IMG/VR virus record: IMGVR_UViG_3300029787_000079
Coordinates: 1 to 51,371 of that record
DNA length: 51,371 bases
From: a virus
Direction: 5' to 3' (one strand)
In this document: positions 37,011 to 47,375 of the stretch, in pieces
How positions within the stretch are numbered: position 1 is the first letter of the stretch
Layout of the letters: each line of letters begins with the position of its first letter
Program-made: the position numbers and the translations under genes
Notes under the pieces: generated by a model
The model's input: the letters and a program-made list of their open reading frames with translations, nothing else
The model's database searches: none
What the model was told of the DNA's origin: nothing

Positions 37011-37582
37011 GTAAAACTAAAATTTGTAAAATTTGTAAAAAATATTTTTCTTTAGATATGTTCTACTTAAGTAAAAATGGTAGATATAATTTCTGCTGCA
37101 TACCTTGCGATAAAAAACGAAAAGCTGTGTATAGGTTTGAAAATAAAGAGAGAATTGCATTAGCAGAATATAAGTATATGAACACAGAAAGAGGCTATGT
37201 CATGGAAGTAATTAATGGAATATTTTATAGACATAAAAGAAAAAATGCAAGACTTAAATGGGTGCCTGAATGTACTAAAGAAGAAATTTACGCAGAGCTC
37301 ATGTTATATATACAAGACCATGGTCGCAATTGTGAATATTGCAAAGAACCTTGGACTTATAAAAGAGTGTTAGTTGGAAAAGATAGAAAGTTTAATGGAC
37401 GTGGCCCGAAGATAACAACTAATTTTTCTATTGATAGATTAGATGCAACTCAAACTTATAAATTAGATAATTTAGTTTTTTGTTGTGTTGGTTGCAATTT
37501 AAGAAAAAATCAAGTAAGGTTGTCGGACATATTTAACATCATACGTGTGTATGAAGAAAGAAAGAATAATGAAGTGGAATAA
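37007..37582 (+). CDS. HNH-type endonuclease with zinc knuckles, 191 aa
   Basis: Predicted nuclease, possibly homing or recombination-associated. The N-terminal zinc finger is KICKICKKYFSLDMFYLSKN with CCIPCDKKRK. A second Cys pair is NCEYCKEPW. The HNH-like core TTNFSIDRLDATQTYKLDNL VFCCVGCNLRKNQ contains Asp-Arg plus the N and Cys-x2-Cys positions; the usual His appears replaced by 'IDR', so the fold is HNH/ENDO VII-like rather than canonical. The start is GTG at 37007, overlapping the upstream stop. It overlaps the next nuclease gene by 14 nt. Confidence 0.7.
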   Translation: MSKTKICKICKKYFSLDMFYLSKNGRYNFCCIPCDKKRKAVYRFENKERIALAEYKYMNTERGYVMEVINGIFYRHKRKNARLKWVPECTKEEIYAELMLYIQDHGRNCEYCKEPWTYKRVLVGKDRKFNGRGPKITTNFSIDRLDATQTYKLDNLVFCCVGCNLRKNQVRLSDIFNIIRVYEERKNNEVE

Positions 37583-38240
37583 ACTATATAATTATCCGAA
37601 GACCGTAAGATCTTCTATTGATGGAGTACGTAAATATGATGTTAATGACGAGAAATTACCTAGTGTCACGACTATATTAAAAGCCACTGAATCTGAAGAT
37701 AAGAAAGAATCTTTATCTCGTTGGAAAGATAGGGTCGGCGAAGTTGAGGCAGATAGAATTAAAAATGTAGCGGCAACTAGGGGAACTGCTATGCACACGT
37801 ATCTCGAACATTATATTAAAGGTGGCAAGGTGCTCGATTTAACCGACGTGGGGCGAGAGGCGAGTAGCATGGGTCAAATGATTATTGACAAAGGATTTAG
37901 TGACTTGGAGGAAGTATGGGGCGTCGAGTGTACACTACATTATCCGGGTCTATACGCTGGTCAAACTGACATGTGTGGAATTTATCAAGGACGCGAAAGT
38001 ATAATAGACTTCAAGCAATCGAACAAGCCCAAACGTGCCGAGTGGATAGATGATTATAAATTACAACTTGTTGCATACGCTATGGCGCATGACCAAGTCT
38101 ATGGAACGAGGATCGAGCAGGGTGTTATTTTGATGTGTACACCGGATAATTTCTTTCAGAGGTTTCTAGTGAATGGCAGCGAGTTTCGGAAGTGGAAATG
38201 GGAGTGGCTAAAAAAGATTGACCAATACTATAATTCTTAA
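37569..38240 (+). CDS. PD-(D/E)XK exonuclease, RecB/Cas4-like, 223 aa
   Basis: Predicted DNA exonuclease for replication or recombination. SVTTILKATE and TRGTAMHTYLEHYIKGG give the RecB-family motif I. GLYAGQTDMCGIYQGRESII then DFKQSNKPK give the D...DxK catalytic core. DDYKLQLVAYAMAHDQVYGT is the QxxxY motif. This set defines the Cas4/RecB-type PD-(D/E)XK nucleases. The ATG at 37569 is preferred (GAAAGAA upstream). The gene is noticeably more GC-rich (about 37640-38200) than its neighbours, which may reflect transfer. Confidence 0.85.
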   Translation: MKWNKLYNYPKTVRSSIDGVRKYDVNDEKLPSVTTILKATESEDKKESLSRWKDRVGEVEADRIKNVAATRGTAMHTYLEHYIKGGKVLDLTDVGREASSMGQMIIDKGFSDLEEVWGVECTLHYPGLYAGQTDMCGIYQGRESIIDFKQSNKPKRAEWIDDYKLQLVAYAMAHDQVYGTRIEQGVILMCTPDNFFQRFLVNGSEFRKWKWEWLKKIDQYYNS

Positions 38241-38689: not shown

Positions 38690-38795
38690 ATTTTAATTTT
38701 AATTTTTGTACAAAAAATACAAAACTGCGACATAAGTATACAGATTAAGGCAACAATGTGGCGAAATCATAGAATAGCCGCACTTTTTGCAAACC

Positions 38796-38835
38796 AAAAG
38801 TGTGGAAGAGGGTATCAAAAAACCCCATAAAATGA
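38796..38835 (+). repeat. 40-nt imperfect direct repeat, copy 1
   Basis: Matches 38880-38919 closely. Both begin AAAAGTGTGGAA and end CATAAAATGA. Each contains a small inverted repeat (here GGGT...ACCC) around tcaaaaa, so each could form a 4-5 bp hairpin. The copies are spaced 84 nt apart, about eight DNA helical turns. Confidence 0.75.
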
Positions 38836-38879
38836 CATTTGCAAAAATTTTTTGTGTCGATTTTACGAAATTTAGGGGC

Positions 38880-38919
38880 AAAAGTGTGGAAACGGGTGTC
38901 AAAAACCCGCATAAAATGA
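38880..38919 (+). repeat. 40-nt imperfect direct repeat, copy 2
   Basis: Second copy. The internal inverted repeat is CGGGT...ACCCG. The hairpin arms differ from copy 1 by compensating changes (G-G-G-T/A-C-C-C kept, outer pair C/G added), suggesting that the stem, not just the sequence, is preserved. Confidence 0.75.
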
Positions 38920-39219
38920 ATTTTTTTTTCAAAAATGTGGAAAATGTGGAAAGTCAAAATGATTAGAATTGTTGATATACAAGGAAACTAGACGATTTCC
39001 ACATTTCCACACTTTTCAAAATGTTTTTGGTCGTGTAAGTCTTCAAAAGTTTTTTAGGTCTTTATTTGTGGAAAAAAGCCAAAAATCGATTATTAACGTT
39101 GGTATACAATAAAAGTAGCTTCCACATTTTTAAAACTAAAAATGTGGAAAATGTAGAAAGGCGCAATTACCAACACTTTTTCGCATTTAAAAATGTGGAA
39201 GAAATGTGTAATAAGTGTA

Positions 39220-39372: not shown

Positions 39373-39622
39373 GGCATACCCATTTGTGGAAATTGAATGG
39401 AGTGATATCGAAGGGGATGCTGGTTGGTCTGATACTAAATCATTAAACAAAGAAGAACTACCAACGTGTGTCTCCAAAGGTTACCTTGTTAGTCAAAAAA
39501 ATGGTATTACAAGAATATTTACAGATTACATAAAAACAAAAGATAAACCTACATTTGATAGTATTGGCAACACAACCATAATCCCAACGGCAGTAATACA
39601 ATCAATTAAAAAAATTAATTAA
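39278..39622 (+). CDS. Conserved small phage protein, 114 aa
   Basis: The basic N-terminus (MPKRRQKRKTKRRIKNKKII) is followed by a compact domain: KIEAYPFVEIEWSDIEGDAG, WSDTKSLNKEELPTCVSKGY, LVSQKNGITRIFTDYI and TTIIPTAVIQSIKKI. The domain pattern 'P.V.I.W.DI.GDAGW...........C.S.GYL......I.I...' is remembered from many marine phages. Function unknown; it could bind DNA near the origin. The stop is convergent with, and overlaps, the small terminase stop. Confidence 0.6.
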   Translation: MPKRRQKRKTKRRIKNKKIIPLNLKSLGNKIEAYPFVEIEWSDIEGDAGWSDTKSLNKEELPTCVSKGYLVSQKNGITRIFTDYIKTKDKPTFDSIGNTTIIPTAVIQSIKKIN

Positions 39623-40139
39623 GTTTTTTTAATTTTGGCAACCTTGATTCTTTAACATCTTTTTTAATTTTTTTTGTCATATCTTTCATTTCAACACCTT
39701 CAAGAATAGGTGAGTATTGATCTATAATATCCTTCATCCTCGTTTCTAGCTCCTCCGCACTCAAATCATCTATCTTACCGGTTCGTATAATTTTCTGTTC
39801 AACATATAATCCGGCAGCTTTACCTCTTGCAACCTCTGCGTTAGTTGCGGCAGAAAAAGCCCCTTTCTTTAATGCGTTCTCTCTTATTTTAGCAAGTTCC
39901 GTGATGTGTCTCTCAAAAGTTACCGCATACTTTTTTTGATTTTCTTCACGGAGCTCACCAATGTATTTAACTACGAGAGGGTATTTTTTTGGATTTTGTA
40001 ATTCGTAAGCTCTTATTCTTGCCGCCTCACCATAACCGGCCTCTTTTGCACATTCTGTGCCATTCATTCTACCTTCATTAGCAACAACTAATTGAGCAAA
40101 TTTAATTTGTTTTTCTGTTAATCTTTTAGGAACTCCCAT
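39615..40139 (-). CDS. terS: Terminase small subunit, 174 aa
   Basis: DNA-recognition subunit of the packaging motor. The N-terminal helix-turn-helix region LTEKQIKFAQLVVANEGRMN followed by GTECAKEAGYGEAARIRAYE is typical of Terminase_2-type small subunits, followed by a coiled oligomerisation region (VKYIGELREENQKKYAVTFE) and a Lys-rich C-terminus. The start at 40139 (MGVPKRLTEKQ) is preferred to an upstream in-frame ATG at 40175, which lies inside the promoter. It is on the opposite strand and nearly 6 kb from the large subunit. Confidence 0.85.
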   Translation of the reverse strand: MGVPKRLTEKQIKFAQLVVANEGRMNGTECAKEAGYGEAARIRAYELQNPKKYPLVVKYIGELREENQKKYAVTFERHITELAKIRENALKKGAFSAATNAEVARGKAAGLYVEQKIIRTGKIDDLSAEELETRMKDIIDQYSPILEGVEMKDMTKKIKKDVKESRLPKLKKLN

Positions 40140-40142
40140 ATG

Positions 40143-40175
40143 TTGACGTATAGAGTAATTTAAGGTACAAGTCAA
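40143..40175. promoter_or_regulatory. Bidirectional promoter, both genes leaderless
   Basis: Plus: TTGACG (40143-40148), 17-nt spacer, TACAAG (40166-40171), ATG at 40180. Minus: TTGACT (complement 40170-40175), 17-nt spacer, TATACG (complement 40147-40152), small terminase ATG at 40139. Each ATG lies 7-8 nt after its -10, so both transcripts should begin at or next to the start codon. The two -35 elements are the arms of an inverted repeat (TTGACGTATA / TACAAGTCAA). Confidence 0.65.
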
Positions 40176-42457: not shown

Positions 42458-42601
42458 TTATTCCTCGCTTTCTGTATTTTTTTCATCATTTTCATATCCA
42501 TCACCCATACAATAATTACATTGAACTCTTGAATGTATATCATCATAAGTTGCTGATAAATTATAGTATCCTTTACCCTCACACATTTGACATTTTGACA
42601 T
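42458..42601 (-). CDS. Small DnaJ-type zinc-finger protein, 47 aa
   Basis: MSKCQMCEGKGYYNLSATYD then DIHSRVQCNYCMGDGYENDE. Cys 4, 7, 28 and 31 as CxxCxGxG and CxYCxGxG, the DnaJ zinc-centre pattern, with an acidic end. Same class as 35489-35680, though in a different gene block. The stop abuts the next start across a repeated AGAAAGCGAGGAATAAATG cassette. Confidence 0.55.
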   Translation of the reverse strand: MSKCQMCEGKGYYNLSATYDDIHSRVQCNYCMGDGYENDEKNTESEE

Positions 42602-42635
42602 TTTATTCCTCGCTTTCTGTTTTTATTTTTTCTTT

Positions 42636-42782
42636 CTAATTTGGCAATCCCTCAGTTATTGAGGCCATACCACCAAAAACAATTAATAAACCTAATATAT
42701 CGTGTTCTGTATGAATTGCAAGTATTACCCCAAGCATTGAGGCAATAAAACCTAGTAATACCATTAATAGTCTTAACATCAT
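42636..42782 (-). CDS. Small two-span membrane protein, 48 aa
   Basis: MMLRLLMVLLGFIASMLGVI LAIHTEHDILGLLIVFGGMA: two hydrophobic stretches joined by a short polar loop. Starts overlap the upstream stop (ATGATG over TGA). Together with 42779-42886 it forms a pair of tiny membrane proteins. Possibly holin-like or superinfection-exclusion related; no proof. Confidence 0.5.
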   Translation of the reverse strand: MMLRLLMVLLGFIASMLGVILAIHTEHDILGLLIVFGGMASITEGLPN

Positions 42783-42886
42783 ACAACCCCCATTGTTGCC
42801 CATTGATGTAAAGCAAACATTATTATTGATACAAAACTAATAACAAATGTAATGCTAAATATTATTATCCATTTAAGATCTTTCAT
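42779..42886 (-). CDS. Small single-span membrane protein, 35 aa
   Basis: MKDLKWIIIFSITFVISFVS IIMFALHQWATMGVV: one membrane segment (residues 6-26). Its start follows AAAGGATAATATG, the same intercistronic type as in the genes upstream. The stop overlaps the next start. Function unknown. Confidence 0.5.
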   Translation of the reverse strand: MKDLKWIIIFSITFVISFVSIIMFALHQWATMGVV

Positions 42887-42887
42887 A

Positions 42888-43172
42888 TTATCCTTTCTGC
42901 TCGCTTGCTTGTTCTTTTAATTTATAATCTGGTATTTCTATTTCATATATTAAAAATGAATCTGTTTTATGCTCATATTCATAATAAAATGTTTTATTCC
43001 AATATTTATTTTCTAAATGTGAAATAAACCCATCAATCCAACAATCATCATCACCATTAAAATAATTTTCATTTTTAATTTCTGGATATTCTTTTTTACA
43101 ATATTTTTTAAACTCTTCACTTATCAACCATAAAGATTTAACTCCACCTACTTCTAAATATAAAGTTCTCAT
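42888..43172 (-). CDS. Small acidic protein with QASEQKG C-terminus, 94 aa
   Basis: Not recognised. MRTLYLEVGGVKSLWLISEE followed by FKKYCKKEYPEIKNENYFNG and an aromatic-rich second half (NKYWNKTFYYEYEHKTDSFL). It ends KLKEQASEQKG, an ending shared with the next two upstream genes. The sequence encoding the tag also carries the next gene's ribosome site (CAGAAAGG). Acidic, no membrane segment. Confidence 0.55.
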   Translation of the reverse strand: MRTLYLEVGGVKSLWLISEEFKKYCKKEYPEIKNENYFNGDDDCWIDGFISHLENKYWNKTFYYEYEHKTDSFLIYEIEIPDYKLKEQASEQKG

Positions 43173-43173
43173 A

Positions 43174-43395
43174 TTATCCCTTCTGCTCGCTCGCTTGTTG
43201 TTTTAATTCTATTCCGTCTTGTTCTAAATGATCTAATAAATTTAAACTTTTTGCCATATCTTCTGCTGTTTTTGGACAAATACAAAAAGCCACAGTATTA
43301 ATTTTACCATTTTGAAAATCATATTTTACAGCAACATCGTCTGAAAAATAATTACCTTCAAAATCCTCATCGTGTATCATATCATTTGTTATCAT
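43174..43395 (-). CDS. Small protein with QASEQKG C-terminus, 73 aa
   Basis: MITNDMIHDEDFEGNYFSDD then VAVKYDFQNGKINTVAFCIC PKTAEDMAKSLNLLDHL. It ends ELKQQASEQKG. Two Cys in VAFCICPK. Start after AGAAGGGATAAT. The body differs from its neighbours, so only the tail and spacer are shared. Function unknown. Confidence 0.55.
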   Translation of the reverse strand: MITNDMIHDEDFEGNYFSDDVAVKYDFQNGKINTVAFCICPKTAEDMAKSLNLLDHLEQDGIELKQQASEQKG

Positions 43396-43396
43396 A

Positions 43397-43549
43397 TTAT
43401 CCCTTCTGCTCGCTCGCTTGCTCGCTTGTTAGTTTAAAATGCGATGCTTTGGTTAGGTCAATCCCCGCTACTAACACCGCATTTATTCGCACAAAATTAA
43501 ACATCCTGCACAAATCCTTTAAAATCTTTTTTGTTTTTTTATATTTCAT
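43397..43549 (-). CDS. Small basic protein with QASEQKG C-terminus, 50 aa
   Basis: MKYKKTKKILKDLCRMFNFV then RINAVLVAGIDLTKASHFKL and TSEQASEQKG. The ATG at 43549 is used because the longer frame (from 43630) would run through the TTGACT/TATAAA promoter at 43563-43590. The first nine residues come from the duplicated 67-bp cassette, so the gene was made by joining the cassette to a new coding sequence. Function unknown. Confidence 0.45.
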   Translation of the reverse strand: MKYKKTKKILKDLCRMFNFVRINAVLVAGIDLTKASHFKLTSEQASEQKG

Positions 43550-43591
43550 ACTTTCATTTATTTTTATATAATATCCTATATATAAGTCAAT
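43525..43591 (-). repeat. 67-bp direct repeat copy 1: promoter plus start cassette
   Basis: Identical to 43861-43927. On the minus strand it holds TTGACT (complement 43585-43590), 16-nt spacer, TATAAA (complement 43563-43568), the TATAGGATATTATA element (complement 43567-43580), the leader and the ATGAAATATAAA start. Here it provides both the promoter and the first codons of 43397-43549. Confidence 0.85.
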
Positions 43592-43593
43592 CG

Positions 43594-43848
43594 TTATTTC
43601 CCCTCTTTTATTTCTAATTGATGAACACATTTACCATATTTGTCAAATAAATATCCATTAGCTTGACAATGTTCTATGATGTCAGTTTCTTCCCAATCAC
43701 TAGGATAATCTAATTTTGTAACTATATTACCATTTTCATCTTCGTCTTCATAATCAAACGGTAATTTATCAAGCCAAATTTTTACATGAACTTTGCTATC
43801 ATCACTCAAGTCTTGGTAATTATAAGCATTTATTTTTATTGTTTCCAT
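43594..43848 (-). CDS. Small acidic protein, 84 aa
   Basis: METIKINAYNYQDLSDDSKV then HVKIWLDKLPFDYEDEDENG and WEETDIIEHCQANGYLFDKY. Asp/Glu-rich (pI clearly acidic), with KIWLDKLPFDYEDE as the most conserved-looking part. The ribosome site GAGAGGAAT lies 5 nt before ATG. The small, acidic character is common in host-takeover or antirestriction proteins; no specific assignment. Confidence 0.55.
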   Translation of the reverse strand: METIKINAYNYQDLSDDSKVHVKIWLDKLPFDYEDEDENGNIVTKLDYPSDWEETDIIEHCQANGYLFDKYGKCVHQLEIKEGK

Positions 43849-43860
43849 TATTCCTCTCTT

Positions 43861-43927
43861 TCTTTTTTGTTTTTTTATATTTCATACTTTCATTTATTTT
43901 TATATAATATCCTATATATAAGTCAAT
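43861..43927 (-). repeat. 67-bp direct repeat copy 2: promoter plus leader
   Basis: Identical to 43525-43591, 336 bp away. On the minus strand the promoter is TTGACT (complement 43921-43926) and TATAAA (complement 43899-43904) with TATAGGATATTATA (complement 43903-43916). The same ATGAAATATAAA start is present (43885) but opens only a 21-codon frame overlapping the start of the 43848 gene. It is a relic or leader peptide. Confidence 0.85.
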
Positions 43928-44250
43928 TATGTTCCCCTCCAATAATAATTTTTACCTTGAAATGTGCTTTCCGAATAATCCATTTTCATTAAGTTAGACC
44001 ATTTTTCCCAATCAATACAATTTTCTAATGGGTTAAAAGTATCTGATCTTATTTCTAAATAACCACAATCGGAGGCAAAATCTCTACAATAATCTTCCCA
44101 ATAATACTCACTTATAAAATGAATACCATGTTCCCAACCATAGTTTTCGCATTCTTCTTTTAACTCTTTAATCGCCTCCTTTGTTTCGTTGTCTGTATCA
44201 GGATTATTCAATTCTTCTTCTAAATCCCTACTATCTAATGTATCGCTCAT
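43927..44250 (-). CDS. Acidic small protein, possibly antirestriction-like, 107 aa
   Basis: MSDTLDSRDLEEELNNPDTD then KELKEECENYGWEHGIHFIS, YYWEDYCRDFASDCGYLEIR and NCIDWEKWSNLMKMDYSEST. Very acidic with many Trp/Tyr. The 'YGWEHGIHFISE.Y.EDY....A...G' and 'IDWE.....L.MDY....F.G..Y..R' parts are remembered from phage proteins sometimes labelled antirestriction. Acidic DNA-mimic function is only a hypothesis. Preceded on its strand by AAAGGAAAAAATG. Confidence 0.6.
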   Translation of the reverse strand: MSDTLDSRDLEEELNNPDTDNETKEAIKELKEECENYGWEHGIHFISEYYWEDYCRDFASDCGYLEIRSDTFNPLENCIDWEKWSNLMKMDYSESTFQGKNYYWRGT

Positions 44251-44272
44251 TTTTTCCTTTCGTTAAGATTGA

Positions 44273-44301
44273 ATACTATAATATCCTATATAATAAGTCA
44301 A
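44273..44301 (-). promoter_or_regulatory. Minus-strand promoter of the 43927-44250 gene
   Basis: TTGACT (complement 44296-44301), 17-nt spacer, TAGTAT (complement 44273-44278), overlapped by TATAGGATATTATA (complement 44277-44290). The start codon at 44250 follows about 15 nt after the inferred start point with AAAGGAAAAA between. Confidence 0.65.
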
Positions 44302-44332
44302 TCATTATTATTGATTAAAATTAATATAATTT

Positions 44333-44557
44333 CTATTGGTTCATTTCTTTTTGTAATGCTGATTTTACTAATTCATAATTTTCAGTATAACCACCATCAA
44401 TCAAAGCAGTTCGAACTGCTTTATTGTCCTTGTTATGTGCATATACAAAATTCTTTTCTGTTGGAAATTTCTTTCCATTTATATGAACAGTAACACCTTG
44501 TAAGTAACCAAAATAATATTTTGGCTTAACTAATATTTTTAATTTATCTATGTTCAT
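44333..44557 (-). CDS. Small hypothetical protein, 74 aa
   Basis: MNIDKLKILVKPKYYFGYLQ then GVTVHINGKKFPTEKNFVYA and ALIDGGYTENYELVKSALQK. Beta-rich with no membrane segment. The ATG at 44557 is chosen because CCAAAGGAGAA lies 9-14 nt upstream; an upstream ATG overlaps the previous gene. Coupled by two bases to the 44927 gene. Confidence 0.5.
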   Translation of the reverse strand: MNIDKLKILVKPKYYFGYLQGVTVHINGKKFPTEKNFVYAHNKDNKAVRTALIDGGYTENYELVKSALQKEMNQ

Positions 44558-44954: not shown

Positions 44955-44982
44955 ATCTTATAATATCCTATATATATGTCAA
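44955..44982 (-). promoter_or_regulatory. Minus-strand promoter for the accessory block
   Basis: TTGACA (complement 44977-44982), 16-nt spacer, TAAGAT (complement 44955-44960), with TATAGGATATTATA (complement 44959-44972) between them. It drives the 44927 gene; downstream genes have additional copies of the same element. Confidence 0.6.
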
Positions 44983-45657: not shown

Positions 45658-45905
45658 GTTTGCGCCTCGTTGCGAGTTGCTAGGATCTGGCCAATTAATA
45701 GAGGTACCAAAGCAAAGCCAAAATTACAAAAGTTCTTATTTATTAATTCTTTTTTTCGAGAAAGATGTAACTAACACTAGTTATTATTGCGAGATTTGTA
45801 CGGTTTATGACCTCAAATTCGTTATTGCTTTCTAAGAGAATACCGAATAAATTAACAATCGTTGGAAACATTAACCAAAAAATTTTACAAAAAATTTTTT
45901 TCAAA

Positions 45906-47375
45906 ATGCATATTGATTTAGACAAAATAAAAAAGCTCCCACCAGATGTCCGAAAAGACTTTATGAAAATGGCTGTAAAGCTAGACGAAAAGAAAAAAGT
46001 ATCAAAGGTTAGAAAAGACTTTCTTTCCTTTACAAAGCATATGTGGCCTGAGTTTATTGAAGGTAAACACCACAAGATTATTTCACAAAAATTTAATGAT
46101 CTTGCAAGTGGTAAAATAAAAAGATTAATTGTAAATATGCCACCAAGACATACCAAATCAGAGTTCGCTAGCTCCTTGCTTCCCGCTTGGATGATCGGGC
46201 GTAATCCAAAATTAAAAATAATTCAAACTACTCACACCGGAGAACTTGCAATAAGATTCGGGCGTAAAGCTAAAACGCTGATGGATACCGAAGACTACAA
46301 ACAAGTGTTTGAGACAAGACTTAGAGAGGATAGTCAAGCAGCGGGCAGATGGGAAACCGAGCAAGGTGGCGAATACTTTGCATCAGGTGTTGGTGGAGCA
46401 ATAACAGGTCGTGGTGCAGATTTATTAATAATTGATGATCCACACTCAGAGCAAGACGCTATGAACAATCAAGCGTTGGAGCGAGCATACGAATGGTATA
46501 CATCAGGACCAAGACAACGTCTTCAACCGGGTGGTGCAATCGTTTGTGTAATGACAAGATGGAATACGAAAGATTTAACAGGTATGTTATTAAAACATCA
46601 AAAAGAAGCAAAAGCAGATCAGTGGGAGGTTGTAGAGTTCCCAGCGATCATGCCATCAGGTAAACCGGTATGGCCTGAGTATTGGAAGCTGAAAGAATTA
46701 GAAACAGTAAAGGCATCCTTATCACTTGGCAAATGGAACGCACAATGGATGCAAAACCCAACATCAGAAGAGGGAGCTATCATTAAACGGGAGTGGTGGA
46801 ACATTTGGGAAAAAGAAGAGATGCCAATATTAGAACACGTTATACAATCTTACGATACCGCTTTTATGAAAAAAGAAACAGCCGACTATAGTGCTATAAC
46901 TACATGGGGTGTATTTCGTGAAAACGAAGACAGTCCACAACAGTTAATATTAGTCGATGCACTAAAAGGTAGATACGAGTTTCCCGAACTTCGCCGAATA
47001 GCAAAAGAGCAATATGATTACTGGAATCCAGAAACTGTTCTAGTTGAGGCTAAAGCCAGTGGACTACCACTTACATACGAGTTGAGGAATATGGGTATAC
47101 CTGTTGTAAATTATACTCCTTCTAAAGGAAACGACAAGCACGCTAGAGTAAATGCTGTTGCACCTTTGTTTGAAAGTGGTATGATATGGACTCCTGATGA
47201 AAAGTTTGCAGAAGAGGTGATTGAGGAGTGTGCTGCTTTTCCATACGGTGACCACGATGACTTGGTCGATAGTATGACTCAGGCTGTGATGCGATTTAGA
47301 CAGGGAGGGTTGGTACCGCATCCTGAAGATTATAGAGATGAGCAAATTATAAAAACGAAAAGAACTTATTACTAA
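45906..47375 (+). CDS. terL: Terminase large subunit, 489 aa
   Basis: DNA-packaging ATPase/nuclease. ATPase motifs: LIVNMPPRHTKSEFASSLLP (Walker A-type PPRHTKSE), LLIIDDPHSEQDA (Walker B). The nuclease domain has QSYDTAFMKKETADYSAITT (first Asp), VLVEAKASGLPLTY (second acid) and GDHDDLVDSMTQA (third). Length matches Terminase_6-type large subunits. The ATG at 45906 (MHIDLDKIKKLPPDVRKDF) is preferred; an ATG at 45807 would add 33 unusual residues. No good ribosome site precedes either. It overlaps the next gene by TAATG. Confidence 0.92.
   Translation: MHIDLDKIKKLPPDVRKDFMKMAVKLDEKKKVSKVRKDFLSFTKHMWPEFIEGKHHKIISQKFNDLASGKIKRLIVNMPPRHTKSEFASSLLPAWMIGRNPKLKIIQTTHTGELAIRFGRKAKTLMDTEDYKQVFETRLREDSQAAGRWETEQGGEYFASGVGGAITGRGADLLIIDDPHSEQDAMNNQALERAYEWYTSGPRQRLQPGGAIVCVMTRWNTKDLTGMLLKHQKEAKADQWEVVEFPAIMPSGKPVWPEYWKLKELETVKASLSLGKWNAQWMQNPTSEEGAIIKREWWNIWEKEEMPILEHVIQSYDTAFMKKETADYSAITTWGVFRENEDSPQQLILVDALKGRYEFPELRRIAKEQYDYWNPETVLVEAKASGLPLTYELRNMGIPVVNYTPSKGNDKHARVNAVAPLFESGMIWTPDEKFAEEVIEECAAFPYGDHDDLVDSMTQAVMRFRQGGLVPHPEDYRDEQIIKTKRTYY

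Follow-up and report, generated by a model that had tools for sequence, protein, structure and literature searches.

The window analyzed here comprises 51,371 bases and is the IMG/VR virus record IMGVR_UViG_3300029787_000079. It is HTVC027P-like on the basis of its terL, for which the best match is Pelagibacter phage HTVC027P at 76% identity. A primase, helicases, a DNA polymerase, and an exonuclease-like protein (37545-38240, PHROG 298) are all encoded in the window. The elements described below belong to a run of small genes on the minus strand, flanked by terS (39615-40175) and terL (45807-47375). A tRNA search of the window found none and an Rfam search at the gathering threshold gave no match; a permissive Rfam search of 42700-44400 returned only two weak snoRNA matches, both under the cut-off. 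Two observations were also made elsewhere in the window. Clustered short direct repeats around AAAAATGTGGAA and CACTTTTT lie at 38781-39202. In addition, the product of 28868-29545 matches PHROG 3704, which carries a ferredoxin label, and the HTVC027P gene next after the polymerase is annotated as PurM; if these two genes correspond, one of the two labels is probably wrong.

Three minus-strand ORFs within the run (42888-43172, 43174-43395, 43397-43549) end in EQASEQKG, QQASEQKG, and SEQASEQKG respectively. An initial annotation of this DNA had described them as sharing a C-terminal QASEQKG on differing bodies, and their translations bear this out: the bodies are unrelated. The shared ends coincide with a 23-base motif, AAGCGAGCAGAARGGATAATATG, which has three matches in the window at no more than one mismatch (minus strand, 42884-42906, 43170-43192, and 43393-43415) and no match at up to three mismatches in 100 dinucleotide shuffles. 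Within the motif DNA lie a TAA stop, AAGG as ribosome site, and the start codon (ATG) of the next gene. We name the repeated joint element that carries it J1. The copies of J1 in the window and the small genes that they adjoin are as follows:

43393-43423, minus strand: J1 copy A, containing the end of a leader and the ATG of gene 43174-43395
43174-43395, minus strand: small gene of family 3, without Pfam or PHROG match
43170-43200, minus strand: J1 copy B, containing the tail QQASEQKG of 43174-43395, its stop, a ribosome site, and the ATG of 42888-43172
42888-43172, minus strand: small gene of family 32, without Pfam or PHROG match
42884-42914, minus strand: J1 copy C, containing the tail EQASEQKG of 42888-43172, its stop, a ribosome site, and the ATG of 42779-42886
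42779-42886, minus strand: 35-residue ORF of family 33, whose start is supplied by J1 copy C

To determine how widely J1 is distributed, IMG/VR was scanned for exact matches to three variants of the motif. The scans returned 41, 103, and 19 stretches, giving 138 loci; together with the window these form a J1 set of 139 sequences (1.06 Mb), which was searched with up to three substitutions. The set contains 264 copies, 206 of them unique by their flanks. When the ORFs behind J1 were grouped by single-linkage BLAST, they fell into 72 families. Both neighbors belong to families for 123 copies, and these represent 91 different ordered family pairs; across J1 junctions, one family has 11 different followers and another has 11 different predecessors. 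The initial annotation had proposed that one cassette serves as tail, stop, Shine-Dalgarno sequence, and start, and had advised comparing the junction DNA of other phage contigs. That comparison, made on the IMG/VR contigs, shows the proposal to be right and general, with the cassette recurring as DNA before all 72 families.

The genomic position of J1 is uniform. All 244 of the 264 copies that have a landmark on the same locus fit a single arrangement, with terL upstream on the opposite strand and terS downstream on the same strand (both landmarks for 74 copies, terS only for 146, terL only for 24, and none for the remaining 20). As a result, J1 marks a single locus within a single pelagiphage group. 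Eight array proteins that were scanned gave no PHROG match and no Pfam match above the curated cut-off. The first variant of the motif has no exact match in the species genome collection, and J1 is absent at up to four substitutions from the fetched stretches of the isolates HTVC027P, HTVC023P, HTVC134P, and HTVC024P. Likewise, a blastn search of INPHARED with the leader gave nothing better than an E-value of about 5, and tblastn of the largest array family against the same collection gave no match.

The codons of the tail indicate what is conserved. The unique J1 copies translated as a tail number 96 and follow 40 upstream families. The search patterns allowed either A or G at the third positions of the alanine and lysine codons. 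Alanine is encoded by GCG in 77 tails and GCA in 8, and lysine by AAG in 78 and AAA in 15; in the array genes, GCG accounts for 18% of alanines and AAG for 8% of lysines. The other 110 copies are mostly leader copies that are untranslated, with some translated tails from genes lacking a second family member among them, and their column make-up is like that of the 96 tails. Between homologous tailed genes, identity over 25 positions of the joint is 0.91-0.94 both where the bodies (the preceding 150 bases) are 50-60% identical and where they are 90-97% identical; the loci were collected by motif, so conservation of the core is partly selected for and these values are inflated, with the R positions and the flanks exempt.

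Tails are also gained and lost. The array families have 365 distinct gene ends, of which 236 are without a recognizable core, an upper bound given that the regular expression misses variants such as the tail KASEQKG of locus L081. Nine of the 365 have their own stop ahead of the joint. The joint has been gained or lost within 28 of the 45 families that have a translated joint. For example, two relatives found by their gene bodies lack the QASEQKG tail: one in L151 that is 75% identical to gene 43174-43395, and one in L194 that is 84% identical to gene 42888-43172. The latter ends in KLKQKEG, and its own last codons provide an AAGAAGG ribosome site. In body-only searches, five of the six matches to gene 43174-43395 were already J1 contigs and the sixth, the one in L151, was distant, with neither tail nor joint; one of the two matches to gene 42888-43172 was already in the J1 set. 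Family 19 reads J1 in another frame, ending in NQQARNNDTTR. The codon preceding the tail is CAA in 52 of the 96 cases, GAA in 23, and AAA in 7, each of which differs by one base from the TAA that the leaders have at that position. This suggests that tails may have arisen by loss of a stop at the joint.

Because avoided codons are kept, conservation is equal where the DNA is untranslated, and tails come and go within families, these comparisons show that DNA, and not peptide, is the conserved unit. The initial annotation had also raised the idea of a degron or targeting tag common to the island proteins. Most translated copies (96 unique) do use the QASEQKG frame, but it is the one of three frames in which the cassette itself supplies a stop. 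Synonymous codons that are rare in the array genes are retained, untranslated copies are as well conserved as translated ones, and the same families may carry QASEQKG, the unrelated ending TESEE, or no tail. The untailed relatives in L151 and L194 argue directly against a tag, and no case was found of a tail conserved only at the protein level over different DNA. We consider such a tag very improbable. The pattern expected of a protein tag, conserved residues over freely changing synonymous codons, is not seen in the codon and column counts, nor in the families that occur with and without the tail.

Copies of J1 that are not gene ends are mostly preceded by a fixed leader. Its order is the end of the GP88 gene (PF17338, E-value 4.9e-37; last residues GFVQDV), a hairpin HP1 that overlaps the stop of that gene, a second hairpin HP2, AACTAACAAGCGA with zero to three extra 13-base units, and J1. 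The corresponding features of the window are as follows:

43861-43927, minus strand: promoter-bearing repeat, identical to 43525-43591
43525-43591, minus strand: 67-base promoter-bearing repeat before the leader, identical to 43861-43927
43397-43549, minus strand: the third tailed ORF, which spans the leader and probably encodes no conserved protein
43485-43517, minus strand: HP1, conserved leader hairpin with a stem at about 43485-43515
43437-43484, minus strand: HP2, leader hairpin of variable sequence, with a 12-bp outer stem in the fold of the window

In relatives, HP1 holds the GFVQDV end and stop of the preceding gene together with an overlapping ATG. In the window, only a remnant, KNKKDFKGFVQDV followed by a stop, is left before HP1, behind the promoter-bearing 67-base repeat. 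The GFVQDV ending contributed by HP1 is also found on a second, unrelated gene, as in L061 (MSNIFYEHYKK...).

For both hairpins, pairing with own arms was compared with pairing with other arms. In the eight regions with the arm TTTGTATTA, the HP1 sequence behind it forms 9.0 of 9 pairs with its own arm compared with 7.1 with TTTGTGCAA; in the 51 regions with TTTGTGCAA, it forms 8.75 pairs with its own arm compared with 7.9 with the other. The pairing of HP1 is thus maintained despite sequence change. HP2 has 48 different 3' arms among 63 regions, with a median helix of nine pairs for own arms against six for swapped arms, and own arms exceed the 95th percentile of swaps in 33 of the 63 regions. 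Support for pairing in HP2 is therefore good, if not universal. Some leaders also vary in the number of elements they contain. In L003, L006, L018, and L120, a 13-base unit, AAGCGACAAGCTC, is repeated a variable number of times just ahead of the joint, which resembles slippage beside the ribosome site. In L112, HP1 is found twice in close proximity (175-203 and 284-312) with two different HP2 hairpins, which suggests duplication of leader units.

This leader also accounts for the third tailed ORF, which can be extended to 43630. Among 71 distinct HP1 leaders, the frame that opens at the HP1 ATG reaches the stop of the joint in 23, meets an earlier stop in 35, and overshoots in 13, and it is therefore unlikely that a conserved protein is encoded at 43397-43549. 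Two of the three genes originally proposed hold up as genuine small genes, and the third is most likely leader, as its frame is not conserved.

J1 is not the only joint in the window. A second sequence, AGAAAGCGAGGAATAA, is present in two copies and is here called J2:

42603-42618, minus strand: J2 core copy 1, AGAAAGCGAGGAATAA, with no recognizable gene's tail
42458-42473, minus strand: J2 core copy 2, containing the tail NTESEE of ORF 42458-42601, its stop, a ribosome site, and the next ATG

A scan for J2 returned 34 stretches, of which several come from unrelated viruses and probably match by chance. In many of them, unrelated small genes with (T)ESEE ends are followed by unrelated genes, and L186 has five copies. 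A total of 26 ORFs on J2 contigs match 17 of the families found in J1 arrays, and family 16 ends in ICNDCINQQASEQKG with J1 and in ICNDCKKENTESEE with J2. In family 24, J2 is translated in a different frame, which gives the ending KQKARNNGKSNTL. J1 and J2 occur together only in the window and L009 (139 J1 and 35 J2 sequences), a weak count as most contigs are short.

Further elements accompany the arrays. A promoter box lies directly before the leader in the window, in L009, and partly in L064. The promoter-like box TTGACWTATATATAGGATATTATA is found on the minus strand of the window at 43567-43590, 43903-43926, and 44959-44982, with a variant near 44273-44301, and precedes several small early genes. 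Behind the last array gene, L001, L042, L045, L116, and others have two more conserved elements, centered on ACCTACAAGCTAGACAAA and CTGGACATATACG; they are rich in alignment ends and may close the arrays.

The joints are precise boundaries of exchange. Comparison of 195 non-redundant junctions yielded 175 pairs with the same downstream and different upstream DNA, 56 with the reverse, and two that share both, the last figure being low by design, since the set excludes pairs with 95% or more identity on both sides. Near-identical genes change neighbors exactly at the joint, where identity of about 0.95 gives way, over a few bases at its edges, to about 0.3. Alignment ends are 8.3-fold more frequent in joints than expected from length (1008 of 7802 unique ends). 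Two candidate insertions or deletions of a single unit were identified (L069 versus L127, and L096 versus L131).

These observations raise the possibility, also put forward in the initial annotation, that J1 is a recombination joint. On this account, its 31-base repeats would be homology arms for the exchange, insertion, or deletion of gene units, possibly carried out by an exonuclease and an annealing protein of the phage. The switch points at the joint edges, the enrichment of alignment ends, the two candidate indels, and the exonuclease-like protein of the window are consistent with it. However, among gene ends of the same families, different DNA follows near-identical ends as often without J1 (345 of 559 pairs) as with it (59 of 93), counting pairs that are not independent. 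Alignment ends within 30 bases of the stop are in fact denser at gene ends without J1 (7.04 per 100 positions) than with it (5.07), and both exceed gene bodies (0.69). A search for units replaced between two joints gave none, and the window proteins that were scanned (10 by PHROGs and 10 by Pfam, partly overlapping) included no recognizable annealing protein. The matched comparison of gene ends gave no excess of exchange at J1 such as a recombination hotspot would show. With switching equal in both classes, the joint marks boundaries, and a role in causing exchange is unsupported. Gene boundaries in general appear to be the sites of exchange, with J1 as one kind of boundary. The coincidence of J1 with exchange boundaries thus stands, and we regard a recombination joint as unlikely.

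The same independence of switching from the joint would suit a neutral history, in which J1 was copied along with genes and offers nothing beyond an ordinary ribosome site. Other gene ends do have a ribosome site of their own, as seen in L194. This reading is harder to reconcile with a joint that, in a motif-selected collection, stays 91-94% identical while bodies drop to 50-60%, or with the independent joints of like layout, J2 and HP1. We consider it improbable.

We favor, with a probability of roughly 60%, the interpretation that J1 acts as mobile punctuation: a cassette of about 25-31 bases that is maintained at the nucleotide level and supplies a stop, a ribosome site, and a start. It belongs to an island of small orphan genes with rapidly shuffled content, in the terL-terS interval of HTVC027P-like pelagiphages. 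The leader of the island (GP88 gene end, HP1, HP2, and CTAACAAGCGAGC up to the ribosome site) holds one J1, with more between the genes that follow. A gene that lacks its own stop at the joint would read into J1 and end in QASEQKG at its TAA, making the tail a by-product. Since J1 brings a one-frame stop and a start signal, a gene joined in that frame would need neither its own stop nor a neighbor with a suitable ribosome site. The cassette would be kept for translation, through coupling of stop and restart or loading of ribosomes, and may have spread by copying during the exchange of neighboring genes. A ribosome site would take up few of the 25-31 bases, so translation alone leaves the length of J1 unexplained.

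The nearest known kinds of element appear to be the Start-Associated Sequences of cluster K mycobacteriophages and the promoter early stem-loops (PeSLs) of T4-type phages, with both of which J1 seems to share its logic. The former (SAS/ESAS) are described as short repeats of one orientation that occupy the place of the ribosome site, a few bases ahead of the starts of non-structural genes of different families, with the upstream stop sometimes inside the repeat (PMC3203893). The 13-bp SAS consensus is GGGATAGGAGCCC, mostly behind gaps of more than 50 bp, and some copies are preceded by an inverted repeat judged not to support RNA pairing (PMC3203893). Similarly, J1 precedes 72 downstream families, with AAGG about six bases ahead of the ATG. 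Unlike SAS, J1 and J2 differ in sequence from GGGATAGGAGCCC, most internal J1 copies are in tight junctions where the joint forms the upstream gene's own end (96 unique copies), and the leader hairpins do pair.

PeSLs are repeated regulatory cassettes at the boundaries of shuffled small genes (PMC4503421, citing Arbiol 2010 and Comeau 2014). The window leader resembles them in having a promoter-like box, hairpins, and a ribosome site. Each PeSL copy has an early promoter and a stem-loop, whereas most J1 copies have neither and a hairpin leader is associated with only 71 distinct copies; the J1 phage is also not T4-like, as its terL is nearest to HTVC027P (76%). The citing description of PeSLs contains no protein tail (PMC4503421). 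The intergenic repeats of halovirus HF2 are likewise short and lie between viral genes but carry promoters (PMC8707807), whereas J1 carries a stop, ribosome site, and start.

J1 islands also resemble integrons in being arrays of small genes behind one leader with a shared separator. Integron gene cassettes are promoterless small genes arrayed behind a single leader with a shared element between them. In contrast to that element, J1 is a short direct repeat without a long palindrome, and no integrase was identified among the window proteins scanned (10 with PHROGs and 10 with Pfam, some in both). No paper on QASEQKG was found. The literature on pelagiphage hypervariability, recombination, intergenic repeats, and start-associated or boundary sequences, covered mainly through papers outside subscription, yielded no account of these joints.

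A broader proposal, which we put forward tentatively and regard as rather doubtful, is that each pelagiphage lineage keeps its own punctuation word (J1, J2, or HP1) that overwrites the ends and starts of genes. Orphan genes would thereby become plug-compatible without an integrase, and unrelated proteins would be stamped with a lineage-specific tail. In practical terms, the joints provide an explanation for identical C-termini on unrelated phage proteins, and such tails could mislead both annotation and homology searches. They also constitute a large natural sample of how phage gene islands remain expressible during turnover of their content. SAR11 bacteria are among the commonest in the sea and their translation signals are little known; relatives of their viruses here provide stop/start cassettes that are compact and testable.
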